Shown: positions 2,958 through 6,430 of the stretch, in pieces
Layout: the number at the start of each line of letters is the position of its first letter
How positions within the stretch are numbered: position 1 is the first letter of the stretch
From: a virus
Strand: one strand, 5' to 3'
Virus record (IMG/VR): IMGVR_UViG_3300032323_000774
Coordinates: 1-34,193 of that record
DNA: 34,193 nt
The notes under the pieces: generated by a model
What the model saw: the letters and a program-made list of their open reading frames with translations, nothing else
What the model was told of the DNA's origin: nothing
Database searches by the model: none
Program-made: the position numbers and the translations under genes

Positions 2958-3779
2958 ATGAGTCAAGTCGCTGTCATCAACGAAGTCCGAAGCGCCATCG
3001 AGCGCATGTCCCCGCAGTTCAAAGCTGCCCTGCCTGCGCACGTCAGTGTTGACCGCTTTGTGCGCGTCACGCTCACCGCTGTGCAGACCAACCCCAACTT
3101 GCTCAACGCTGATCGCCGCACGTTGTTTGCAGCCGCCACAAAGGCCGCGCAGATGGGCTTGCTGCCAGACGGCCGCGAGGGCGCAATCGTTACATTCAAA
3201 GACCAAGCGCAGTGGATGCCGATGGTCGCGGGCATCATGAAGCTGGTGCGCAACTCGGGCGAGATCAGCACCTGGTCGGTCCAGGCGGTCTACGAGAACG
3301 ATACATTCGATTTCTGCCTGGGCGATGAGGAGCACATCACGCACAAGCCCAACCTGGCCAACCGGGGCAAGCTGATTGCGGTTTACTCCATCGTCACCAT
3401 GAAGGACGGCGAAAAGTCCCGCGAGGTCATGAGTGTTGAGGATGTGCTGGCGATCAAGGCCCGCAGCCGCTCCGGCAGCTCCGGCCCCTGGGTGTCCGAC
3501 TTTGCCGAGATGGCCAAGAAGACCGTTATCCGCCGCCACAGCAAGCGCCTACCCCTGAGCACCGACATTGACGGCGTGCTGAAAGAGGACGACGAGCTGT
3601 TTATGCCAGAGCCACCCGCACCAGAGGCCGCACAAGCCGCTGAAGCGCCATCGGCAAGCAAGCGCCCCAGCCGCCTGCAAAAGGTCGCGGAACAGGCCCC
3701 AGCGCCAGCCGACGACGACGGCGTGATCGACATGCAGCAGTCTGACGCGCCAGCAGAAGACCACGACAGCCCCATCTGA
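2958..3779 (+). CDS. recT: RecT-family single-strand annealing protein
   Basis: Encodes 273 residues with a strong AAGGAG ribosome site. RecT proteins bind ssDNA made by the partner exonuclease and promote annealing during phage DNA recombination. Family features visible are the N-terminal SRxxxxxLP-like helical region with DRFVRVTLTAVQTNPNL (32-48), the conserved AATKAAQMGLLPDG segment (59-72), WMPMVAGIMKLVRNSGEI (86-103), and the C-terminal core signature SDFAEMAKKTVIRRHSKRLP (about 180-199). Residues after about 215 are an acidic Pro/Ala-rich tail, probably disordered, which in such proteins often contacts host SSB or nuclease. It directly follows the YqaJ exonuclease. Confidence 0.94.
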   Translation: MSQVAVINEVRSAIERMSPQFKAALPAHVSVDRFVRVTLTAVQTNPNLLNADRRTLFAAATKAAQMGLLPDGREGAIVTFKDQAQWMPMVAGIMKLVRNSGEISTWSVQAVYENDTFDFCLGDEEHITHKPNLANRGKLIAVYSIVTMKDGEKSREVMSVEDVLAIKARSRSGSSGPWVSDFAEMAKKTVIRRHSKRLPLSTDIDGVLKEDDELFMPEPPAPEAAQAAEAPSASKRPSRLQKVAEQAPAPADDDGVIDMQQSDAPAEDHDSPI

Positions 3780-3784
3780 TTTAC

Positions 3785-3908
3785 GGGCCGCAAAAGCGGA
3801 TGCTGTGACTGCGGTATTGGCAAACCCTGATAGCCAGTACCTCCACCAAACCAGAGTTGCAATGGGTGCAACGCAGTTCAGGACAACAGACGCAGCGAGT
3901 AGCGGCCC
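3785..3908 (+). ncRNA. Candidate structured RNA (three-way junction), possible 5' leader element
   Basis: The 147-base gap after recT folds into a nested design. An outer stem pairs GGGCCGC (3785-3791) with GCGGCCC (3902-3908). Inside, ACTGC (3808-3812) pairs with GCAGT (3873-3877). Abutting it with no spacer are two hairpins: 3813-3821 with 3833-3841 (9 bp, 11-base loop) and GTTGCA 3856-3861 with TGCAAC 3867-3872 (5-base loop). Loop bases CCC (3825-3827) can kiss GGG (3864-3866). One G-U pair in the 9-bp stem and a G-U pair extending the inner stem favour plus-strand RNA. A competing local hairpin CCGC-AAAA-GCGG (3788-3799) would open the outer stem, as in a switch. The ribosome site AAGGAG (3915-3920) of the next gene begins 6 bases later. 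Structure was read by eye; no family identified. Confidence 0.5.
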
Positions 3909-3926
3909 ACCTATAAGGAGAAGCAA

Positions 3927-4202
3927 ATGGCAATCGGAGCAATACAGGGAAGTCTGTACTACGACCCCAACCGCGACATGTACTACAGCGAGCGCGACCG
4001 CCTCGAGCGCGAGATGCACTACCGCCGACAAGAAGATGAGTATCGCCGGGCGCAGCAGCAAATGGGATACAACCCAGCGCAGCAGCAAGCCATTATTGGT
4101 CATGGGCAGGCAAACACAACGTCAAAGCCCGACCCTAAAGACCCGCTGAGTTTTCTCAGCAAAGCAGACAACAAACTTTTACTTACAGGAGAAGCACCAT
4201 GA
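3927..4202 (+). CDS. Tyr/Gln-rich helical protein behind structured leader
   Basis: Encodes 91 residues from the ATG at 3927, with AAGGAG 6 bases upstream. The N-terminus is unusual, with GSLYYDPNRDMYYSERDRLE at residues 8-27, followed by a charged, glutamine-rich helix (QEDEYRRAQQQMGYNPAQQQ). The C-terminal 30 residues look disordered. It starts directly after the structured noncoding stretch, so its translation may be controlled by that element. It overlaps the next gene by 4 bases. No family recognised. Confidence 0.78.
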   Translation: MAIGAIQGSLYYDPNRDMYYSERDRLEREMHYRRQEDEYRRAQQQMGYNPAQQQAIIGHGQANTTSKPDPKDPLSFLSKADNKLLLTGEAP

Positions 4203-4483
4203 AACTCAAACCATTCGCAGAAATCATCGCCATGTCCAAGGAGAAGCTGTCAGAAGCACTGGCACCCATCCGAGCACGCAAGGTTCGCAGCCAAGCCGAG
4301 CTGGAAATGGCCAAGCTGGACGACGAGTTGATTCGTTTGGAAGCCGACATTCAAGAGCAGTGCGCCAAGGAGGACATCAACTTCCCAAGCCTGCTGGACA
4401 AGCTGGACAAGGTCGCTCTGCTTGAGCGCCGCAAGGCGCAGTACGAATCCGTGCTGGCACAACTTTTCCCGGCCAAGACCTAA
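4199..4483 (+). CDS. Coiled-coil early protein, unknown function
   Basis: Encodes 94 residues from the ATG at 4199, in ATGA overlap with the previous gene and with ACAGGAG upstream. Nearly the whole sequence is predicted helical with heptad-like spacing (for example 34-60, ELEMAKLDDELIRLEADIQE and onward). A single Cys lies in the middle. This looks like a small dimeric coiled-coil protein. It is probably co-translated with the preceding gene. Role unknown. Confidence 0.78.
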   Translation: MKLKPFAEIIAMSKEKLSEALAPIRARKVRSQAELEMAKLDDELIRLEADIQEQCAKEDINFPSLLDKLDKVALLERRKAQYESVLAQLFPAKT

Positions 4484-4499
4484 ACAACAGGAGAAACAC

Positions 4500-4874
4500 A
4501 TGAAAACATTAATTGCAGCACTTGCGCTTGCGGCTCTTGCCGGTTGCCAGTCAGATGCGGACGTTGCCTCTCGTAACGTGTCCAAAGCTGCTGACAACTT
4601 TGAAGTTGCGCGTCGCGTCATCTTTTACAACGGCATCACGAACGACTACATGTTGTCCATTGAAGGCTATTGCTCATTGGGCAATCATGACAAGGATGGC
4701 AAGTTGTCTGTGACTTGCAAGACCGGCCCCGGCATTTACAAAAAGCACTTTCTCGGCCTGTCCGACAACGTGACATTTTTTGTGGAGCAGCTGGATGCAA
4801 AGAACGTCAGCACCAGCTTTTACCGCGTGGTGTTCAAGCCATCAACAATCATTCCCGACATCGAAATTCGTTAA
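4500..4874 (+). CDS. Beta-sandwich-type phage lipoprotein
   Basis: Encodes 124 residues from the ATG at 4500 with AACAGGAGA upstream. The N-terminus is a lipoprotein signal: M-K-T, a hydrophobic run, then lipobox LAGC with the lipidated C16. The mature part begins QSDAD and contains FEVARRVIFYNGITNDY, a C-x(about 15)-C pair around residues 59-75, and conserved-looking HFLGLSDNVTFFVEQL and TIIPDIEIR near the end. From memory, close relatives in other Burkholderiales and proteobacterial phages carry the name beta-sandwich lipoprotein. Early expression plus membrane anchoring suggests an envelope role such as superinfection exclusion, but that is inference. It would sit on the periplasmic face of a membrane. 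Confidence 0.85.
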   Translation: MKTLIAALALAALAGCQSDADVASRNVSKAADNFEVARRVIFYNGITNDYMLSIEGYCSLGNHDKDGKLSVTCKTGPGIYKKHFLGLSDNVTFFVEQLDAKNVSTSFYRVVFKPSTIIPDIEIR

Positions 4875-5560: not shown

Positions 5561-5676
5561 CCGATGCACAAATCGCCATGCTGACAGCCAATGTGTTCTT
5601 GGCCGCATGGCTTGGAAAGCACTGGCTTACAGGCCTGTTGTTTGTTTTCTACACCGTCGCAGCGTTCCTGAAATGA
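5557..5676 (+). CDS. 39-residue membrane mini-protein
   Basis: Encodes 39 residues, starting in ATGA overlap with the HTH gene and ending in ATGA overlap with the next gene. It is hydrophobic almost throughout, with two short segments, AMLTANVFLAAWLG (7-20) and WLTGLLFVFYTVAAFL (23-38), split by K21-H22. This could be one long or two short membrane helices. The tight overlaps on both sides are the main argument that it is real. Function unknown. Confidence 0.62.
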   Translation: MTDAQIAMLTANVFLAAWLGKHWLTGLLFVFYTVAAFLK

Positions 5677-5912
5677 ACCAGTCCCGCACTGCATCGCTGA
5701 TCGAATCCGTGTTCAACGTGGTGATCGGCTACGGCGTGGCGCTGGCCAGCCAGCTTGCAATTTTCCCGATGTTCGGCATTCACCTGCCGCTGTCGGACAA
5801 CCTGGCCATCGGAGCCTGGTTCACCATCATCAGTCTGGTGCGCAGCTATGCGATCAGGCGCTGGTTTAACGCACGGCTGCACAGAGCCGCACAGAAACTT
5901 GCAGGACTATGA
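5673..5912 (+). CDS. Two-helix phage membrane protein (DUF7220-like)
   Basis: Encodes 79 residues from the ATG at 5673 (ATGA overlap). The layout is a short basic N-terminus (NQSRTASLIES), a hydrophobic helix (VFNVVIGYGVALASQLAIF, about 13-31), a loop with PMFG, a second helix (NLAIGAWFTIISLVRSYAI, 43-61) and a basic tail RRWFNARLHR. This order matches a small phage family I know as DUF7220, by memory. It probably sits in the inner membrane. Role unknown; ATGA overlap with the next gene. Confidence 0.8.
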   Translation: MNQSRTASLIESVFNVVIGYGVALASQLAIFPMFGIHLPLSDNLAIGAWFTIISLVRSYAIRRWFNARLHRAAQKLAGL

Positions 5913-6430
5913 AAAAACAAAAACCCAAGCGGACGGTCTACGTCTACCGCTACACCCTCTTTGACGTGATGCTGGCCAGCCCCAGCGAGCCGCTGGCAGA
6001 GCACCTGCGCAGGCACCAGCTCACGCGGATGCACCAGGGCCTCGAATCTATGGAGAAGGCCCCAACGCCCACCACCGACGACTGGCGCGTGGTCAGCGAT
6101 GCCGTGAACATCATGGAGACGCTGGTCAATAACGGCCCTTGGTTTGACTGCGATGGCGACCCCGTGGAAATCACCGACGCCTCTGGCCTGCTATCCGACG
6201 CAGTGACGGCCATGGCCATGGCGGGCAAGCGCCACAAGACCGGTGGCAACATCCGACTGGACGGCGCAGGCATCCAGGCCGTGCGCGGCGTGCTGGCCGA
6301 TTACGGCGACCTGCTGGATGTACTGCCAGCCAGGACCATGATCAAAGCTCACCGCGAAACCGAGCGGCGCATCCATGAAATACTTGCGGGCAAGAAAAAG
6401 CCGCACGATGTGGAGGTAATGGACCTATGA
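5909..6430 (+). CDS. Conserved early phage protein, unknown function
   Basis: Encodes 173 residues from the ATG at 5909 (ATGA overlap). It is the largest early gene apart from the recombination pair. Predicted mostly helical, with distinctive segments RMHQGLESMEKAPTPTTDDW, CDGDPVEITDASGLL and RLDGAGIQAVRGVLADYGDL, and a C-terminal ERRIHEILAGKKKPHDVEV. From memory, similar proteins are common in Burkholderiales phages and prophages, always without an assigned function. No signal peptide, membrane segment or known catalytic motif is visible. Confidence 0.82.
   Translation: MKKQKPKRTVYVYRYTLFDVMLASPSEPLAEHLRRHQLTRMHQGLESMEKAPTPTTDDWRVVSDAVNIMETLVNNGPWFDCDGDPVEITDASGLLSDAVTAMAMAGKRHKTGGNIRLDGAGIQAVRGVLADYGDLLDVLPARTMIKAHRETERRIHEILAGKKKPHDVEVMDL

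Follow-up and report, generated by a model that had tools for sequence, protein, structure and literature searches.

Plus-strand phage RNAs with a constant handle and a head that is exchanged as a unit

Bacterial RNase P reads ACC and the G-C terminal pair on pre-tRNAs. tRNAs and tRNA-like RNAs share with the elements described here a terminal helix with a G-C end, an unpaired ACC, a tandem arrangement and, in some heads, T-arm-like hairpins; tRNAs differ in that they are cloverleaves, whereas the elements are rods with a loop E-like internal loop and a terminal helix (P1) of variable length, and tRNA models do not call them. The loop E or sarcin-ricin bulged-G motif, with AGUA opposite GAA and an additional G.A beside a Watson-Crick helix, appears in the same arrangement in the constant part, or handle, of the elements; the likeness is to a structural module only, and the AGUA/GAA consensus suggests non-canonical geometry at this loop. 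GOLLD, which has been studied by cryo-EM (PMC12286853), is likewise phage-associated, non-coding, structured, sometimes adjoining tRNA genes and of freshwater setting, but it is several times larger than these elements and its Rfam model does not match them. cabRNA, a structured RNA of staphylococcal phages that is sensed by bacterial cGAS (PMC10686824), shows that host immunity can be directed at a structured phage RNA and so offers a model for diversifying selection on the heads of the elements; it differs in that it comes from terminase genes, is larger and belongs to phages of Firmicutes, and we mention it because it sets a precedent for such selection, claiming no kinship.

The window, by which we mean the whole 34,193-nucleotide stretch of viral DNA that was analyzed, carries such an element at positions 3785–3908, 5 nt past the stop codon of a recT-like gene and 7 nt ahead of the AGGAG of the next gene. 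A structured RNA behind recT had been proposed here in the first-pass annotation; it is real, and it is one member of a large unnamed phage RNA family with at least about 190 distinct cores in IMG/VR. Its parts are the following:

2958–3779, plus strand: recT-like ssDNA annealing gene, 273 aa, C-terminus ..DHDSPI (open reading frame list)
3785–3791, plus strand: P1, 5' strand, GGGCCGC, pairs with 3902–3908 (fold, and P1 covariation among relatives)
3792–3795, plus strand: loop E-like internal loop, 5' strand, AAAA, where nearly all relatives have GAAA (173-member tally)
3796–3799, plus strand: P2, 5' strand, GCGG, pairs with 3893–3896
3800–3802, plus strand: 3x3 internal loop, 5' strand, AUG, faces 3890–3892 (ACG)
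3803–3806, plus strand: P3, 5' strand, CUGU, pairs with 3886–3889 (ACAG)
3807–3885, plus strand: hypervariable head, a three-way junction with a 5-bp stem bearing 9-bp and 6-bp hairpins (fold)
3886–3896, plus strand: 3' strands of P3, 3x3 loop and P2, ACAGACGCAGC (fold and position tally)
3897–3901, plus strand: loop E-like internal loop, 3' strand, GAGUA (position tally)
3902–3908, plus strand: P1, 3' strand, GCGGCCC (fold and P1 covariation)
3909–3911, plus strand: unpaired conserved ACC directly 3' of P1 (frequency among members)
3916–3920, plus strand: Shine-Dalgarno-like AGGAG of the next small gene (start 3927), outside the RNA (sequence)

The four stems of the original proposal are all present in the sequence, namely the outer 7-bp stem (3785–3791/3902–3908), a 5-bp stem (3808–3812/3873–3877) and hairpins of 9 bp (3813–3821/3833–3841) and 6 bp (3856–3861/3867–3872), but the lower half of the rod, with its loop E-like loop, P2, 3x3 loop, P3 and ACC, had been overlooked, and the complementary CCC and GGG loops to which that proposal drew attention lie in the hypervariable part and are not a feature of the family. 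The pairings of P3 and the head come partly from energy folding. For P2 the plain minimum free energy register (GCG/CGC) was rejected in favor of G-C, C-G, G.A, G-C, because the continuous pairing at loci L007, L019, L145, L204 and L219 fits only there; position 3798/3894 is G.A in the window and is replaced by A-U, U-A or C-G in the variants L219, L204, L019 and L007, which supports the same register. The window element folds to −48.1 kcal/mol in RNAfold, whereas dinucleotide-shuffled sequences average −37.3 ± 4.0 (z = −2.7), with 3 of 200 shuffles reaching its energy. Since its minus strand also beats shuffles (z = −2.3), folding energy alone leaves the strand undecided.

The earlier statement that no named family matches is borne out by Rfam 15, which at the gathering threshold gives no match in the window or in 15 recT relatives; 13 array- or tRNA-linked loci gave tRNAs only, and at the elements themselves, permissive scans gave nothing above chance level. 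A weak match to a plant-virus xrRNA (12.5 bits, E 6.4) and a match to twister-sister outside the element were both dismissed as chance. Neither GOLLD, suspected from the tRNA neighbors and the freshwater setting, nor other large ornate RNAs matched when the carriers, including the tRNA-linked loci, were scanned with cmscan. Weak isrG matches at L030 (282–546 and 1338–1505) arise from long GCTGCT repeats and are low-complexity chance. A 2017 survey reportedly described 224 candidate RNAs, whose motifs are expected to be among the Rfam models. A search of the open-access literature turned up no description of such an RNA.

The family was collected from two directions. Relatives of the window phage's RecT are found at 78 IMG/VR loci (the homologue at L008 matches Pfam RecT at 3.6e-43 and also phrog_148 in profile searches), and at about 30 of these the frame GGGCC-GAAAGCGGATGCTG-[...]-CAGACGCAGCGAGTA-GGCCC-ACC lies directly past the recT stop; at others the next gene follows directly behind recT without the frame. 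Two IMG/VR pattern scans that made no use of recT yielded at least 120 stretches each, so that all family counts are lower bounds; some pattern matches are due to chance inside open reading frames, for example at L093 and L161 and in the 26 seeds that have no right arm. The elements are about 60–125 nt long, and the window element scores 41 bits (E 1e-8) against the family model. Direct blastn of the window region against named phages found only mycobacteriophages, which were rejected as chance matches; a canonical member used as query picked up Alcaligenes phage CASP1 together with two phages from Manatee Spring, and against plasmids blastn gave only chance matches.

From outside to inside the handle consists of a P1 of 4–7 bp, the loop E-like loop (GAAA facing GAGUA or AAGUA), P2, the 3x3 loop and P3, and it encloses the head; its base is nearly identical across members and the tip is hypervariable. 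In a position tally of 173 of the ~190 collected cores all 173 have AGUA in the loop E-like loop, an invariance that is partly by construction because AGUA was required at collection. P1 is 3–7 nt long ahead of ACC (mostly 4–6), the 3x3 loop is AUG/ACG with AUG/UG as a common variant, and P3 starts CUG/CAG. An unpaired ACC directly follows P1 in 142 of 159 members, compared with 10% in nearby sequence, although ACC was one of four soft criteria in member scoring and the true share is perhaps somewhat lower. In phage CASP1 a continuous helix replaces loop E and the 3x3 loop is kept, and at L219, L204 and L019 the 3x3 loop is lost; each internal loop is thus separately dispensable, which argues against a catalytic core. 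Rfam ribozyme families give no match at the elements.

In a set of 62 diverse members, changes on both sides are seen at every one of the six P1 pairs and at two of the four P2 pairs, and 90% of cells are paired, against 72% when shuffled and at most 50% when slid; P1 pairing was one selection criterion for this set. An unbiased set was therefore picked by the 14 bases GAAAGCGGATGCTG plus the right-hand motif, without a P1 criterion (152 of 178 GAAAGCGGATGCTG seeds have that motif). In it the two innermost P1 positions are paired in 98%, where 51% and 48% are expected. This set includes loci from a GCC..GGC pattern scan, which fixes some P1 letters, but P1 occurs there as CG, GC, UG, UA and AU, and with that variety the pattern does not carry the 98% result. 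At the three innermost positions G-U is clearly more frequent than A-C, which points to an RNA of the plus strand, the strand that the first-pass annotation had preferred from two G-U pairs of the window. Homologues that keep an open reading frame through the stretch with uncompensated stems did not turn up.

The heads behave quite differently. They are 16–85 nt long (median 35), 91 of the 188 compared resemble no other head, and the listed head families include no relative with the same head as the window (3807–3885). Where the upstream 150 nt are more than 80% identical, most pairs have handle arms that are alike or identical, yet their heads are no more alike than those of random pairs. L017 and L018 are 96% identical over the upstream 600 nt, 100% in both arms, 24% in the head and 95% over the next 100 nt; L109 and L117 have identical arms and an identical downstream 600 nt (100% each) around unrelated heads; and L049/L050 and L132/L144/L146 likewise have heads swapped within a constant frame. 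Such swaps separate phages that are 96–99% identical upstream. The members of the family are thus plus-strand phage RNAs in which the handle and the flanking genes stay constant and the head is replaced wholesale.

The heads are specific folds, traded as units. One head type, shared by ten members, combines a hairpin of 3 bp, whose loop is mostly UNCG-like, with a second hairpin whose loop is ANYGA-like; all 70 cells are paired, five of seven pairs have changed on both sides and loop bases are invariant. This type occurs downstream of recT as well as of several further genes. In another group the loops are of the (A/G)GNN type. Averaged over the family, the folding energy of heads is little better than that of their shuffled versions (mean z −0.75). 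Their longest guide-like match to the collected DNA of their own phage is 8.9, against 8.7 for shuffled heads; this lack of excess complementarity gives no support to an antisense or guide RNA directed at the collected sequence of the phage itself.

Genomic context was examined in 156 non-redundant elements from context-free scans, 153 of which have an upstream open reading frame. Ninety-three of the 153 start 4–9 nt behind its stop codon, and 61 of the 156 have a profile-confirmed ssDNA-binding or annealing gene upstream (one representative per cluster scanned), drawn from the unrelated families RecT, phrog_18154 SSB, DUF669 and Gp2.5/Enc34. Many copies lie behind other genes, and some are in non-coding DNA. 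Among the genes downstream are those for DNA polymerase, primase, Cas4-type exonuclease and MazG-like proteins, besides many unknown ones. No promoter or intrinsic terminator was found at the element on the plus strand; a terminator was rejected as no GC stem is followed directly by a U-run, and TTTT occurs within 12 nt of 43 of 159 members. Tandem copies with different heads are present at L219 (three, about 8 nt apart), L283, L264, L204, L203 and L135, and elements adjoin tRNA genes at L113, L281, CASP1 and L314. A search of 40 whole viral records found a match in 35, exactly one in 31 of these; the 76-kb record G415 (L139), by comparison with the usual single copy, has two copies 37 kb apart (37709–37790 and 74817–74904). 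Only 2 of 399 host chromosomes, from the order of a Limnohabitans carrier, have a match. Where copies on bacterial contigs are convincing, the contigs are mostly betaproteobacterial, and some of them are probably phage contigs binned into MAGs. A blastp comparison of 18 carriers, which would miss remote homologues and small genes, shows no protein family in more than 11 of them. A phage-encoded partner common to all handles was rejected, none being found in these carriers; if the handles do have a partner in common, the host is its more probable source.

The reading that we tentatively prefer, with a probability of roughly 0.4, is a stand-alone RNA in which a constant handle would serve a host partner and an exchangeable head would carry specificity. 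It would be co-transcribed with the early replication operon and would function as a unit of its own, set tightly between genes in the manner of a tRNA, and processing might place its ends at the G of P1 and close to ACC. The handle would be held by a host factor common to a group of hosts and the head would make a phage-specific contact with a further partner; the rapid turnover of heads would then mean that new specificities are selected, or that escape from recognition of old heads is favored. Three observations lead us to prefer this reading: copies stand in tandem or beside tRNA genes, the ACC is conserved, and selection is visible inside heads. Its extension to a modular, fast-evolving counter-defence, in which heads on a constant protein-binding handle would antagonize, decoy or evade different RNA-sensing defences of hosts or rival phages and would pass from phage to phage through recombination in the handle, is speculative and, on balance, unlikely.

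The preference is only a narrow one over a cis-acting element of the 3' UTR, a possibility that we take seriously while thinking it somewhat the less probable. Here the element would be a rigid, nuclease-resistant intercistronic rod that stabilizes the mRNA of a highly expressed ssDNA-binding or annealing gene ahead of it, or sets this mRNA apart from the next cistron, and the head need only be a stable cap, free to vary and be exchanged. The 4–9 nt spacing behind the stop codons of such genes, themselves of unrelated families, fits a cis role as well as it fits a stand-alone RNA, and the barely better than shuffled folding of the heads counts in the same direction. However, many copies follow other genes, some beside tRNA genes or in non-coding stretches, and a passive cap would not predict a conserved ACC, invariant loop bases or compensatory changes in head stems.

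A recombination linker, that is, a conserved DNA boundary for module exchange through RecT-type annealing with the arms as homology arms, is improbable. It would account for cases in which the same recT and handle are followed by unrelated downstream genes, and for L025/L017, which share upstream sequence and head and are 45–48% identical downstream; but homology arms need no mutual pairing, yet P1 covaries strongly, G-U pairs in P1 and P2 favor RNA, and between L109 and L117 both flanks are kept and the head alone has changed.

Still less probable is a tRNA-like RNA, a decoy or modified relic that would enter tRNA processing through its G-C terminal pair and 3' RCC. The ACC behind the terminal stem agrees with this, as do the neighboring tRNA genes and the T-arm-like hairpins of the heads (7, where 0.4 are expected). 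When heads were compared with host tRNA and 23S rRNA only L305 stood out: the head of its element (start 4179, minus strand) has D-arm-like and T-arm-like segments and includes 18 nt identical to the T-arm region of a host tRNA-Ser; its handle encloses a captured remnant of a tRNA. Against this, P1, at 3–7 nt, lacks the constant length of an acceptor stem, a T-arm is missing from most heads, no cloverleaf with a 7-bp acceptor stem and T-arm is formed by the elements, and neither ARAGORN (no tRNA in the window, none called at elements) nor the Rfam tRNA model calls them.

A riboswitch or other leader switch for the downstream gene, which the first-pass annotation had offered beside a stand-alone RNA, is hardly credible, for although the element ends shortly ahead of a ribosome site and the window can form an alternative CCGC-AAAA-GCGG hairpin, that CCG(C)/(G)CGG hairpin can arise only where P1 is of the CC type and about half of the members are GG-type and cannot form it, the downstream genes are unrelated from case to case and make up no consistent regulated class, no promoter or terminator belongs to the element, and the head, the expected seat of ligand specificity, is hypervariable. 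The stand-alone half of that suggestion stays plausible, given the tandem arrays and the copies beside tRNA genes.

As a bare RNA family these elements would be one more orphan structured RNA. Their design, a constant handle with a wholesale-exchanged head, appears to be new, no RNA built in this way being described in the databases searched. Structured RNAs usually conserve a core and vary slowly at their tips, whereas here near-identical phages differ in a whole enclosed domain; exchanged head folds that covary imply frequent exchange of a phage RNA domain and probably strong selection. The family is widespread, is carried by many freshwater-type phages and is present in an isolated Alcaligenes phage, and it may lead to a factor with which hosts hold phage RNA, or to a sensor that phages evade by altering an RNA.

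Several other stretches also look structured. In phage CASP1 (L327) about 400 nt of non-coding DNA (about 5655–6080), before tRNA-Met and tRNA-Arg, hold several hairpins and a tRNA-like CCTGGGTGCAAGTCCCAGG segment and have no Rfam match. Handle arms without a clear P1 occur on the minus strand of an Achromobacter marplatensis scaffold (L321, 3129 b; 1420–1478 and 1781–1860) and at L319 (3552–3626), L324 (4218–4278) and L314 (2513–2574), inside long stretches that look rich in structure, one of them near a tRNA gene; these arms may be parts of larger unnamed RNAs. Structured-looking repeats with an ACGCATG(A/G)GGATTG motif adjoin the tandem elements of L281 (about 3940–4500, minus strand) and L219 (8080–8290) and are possibly a second RNA family.
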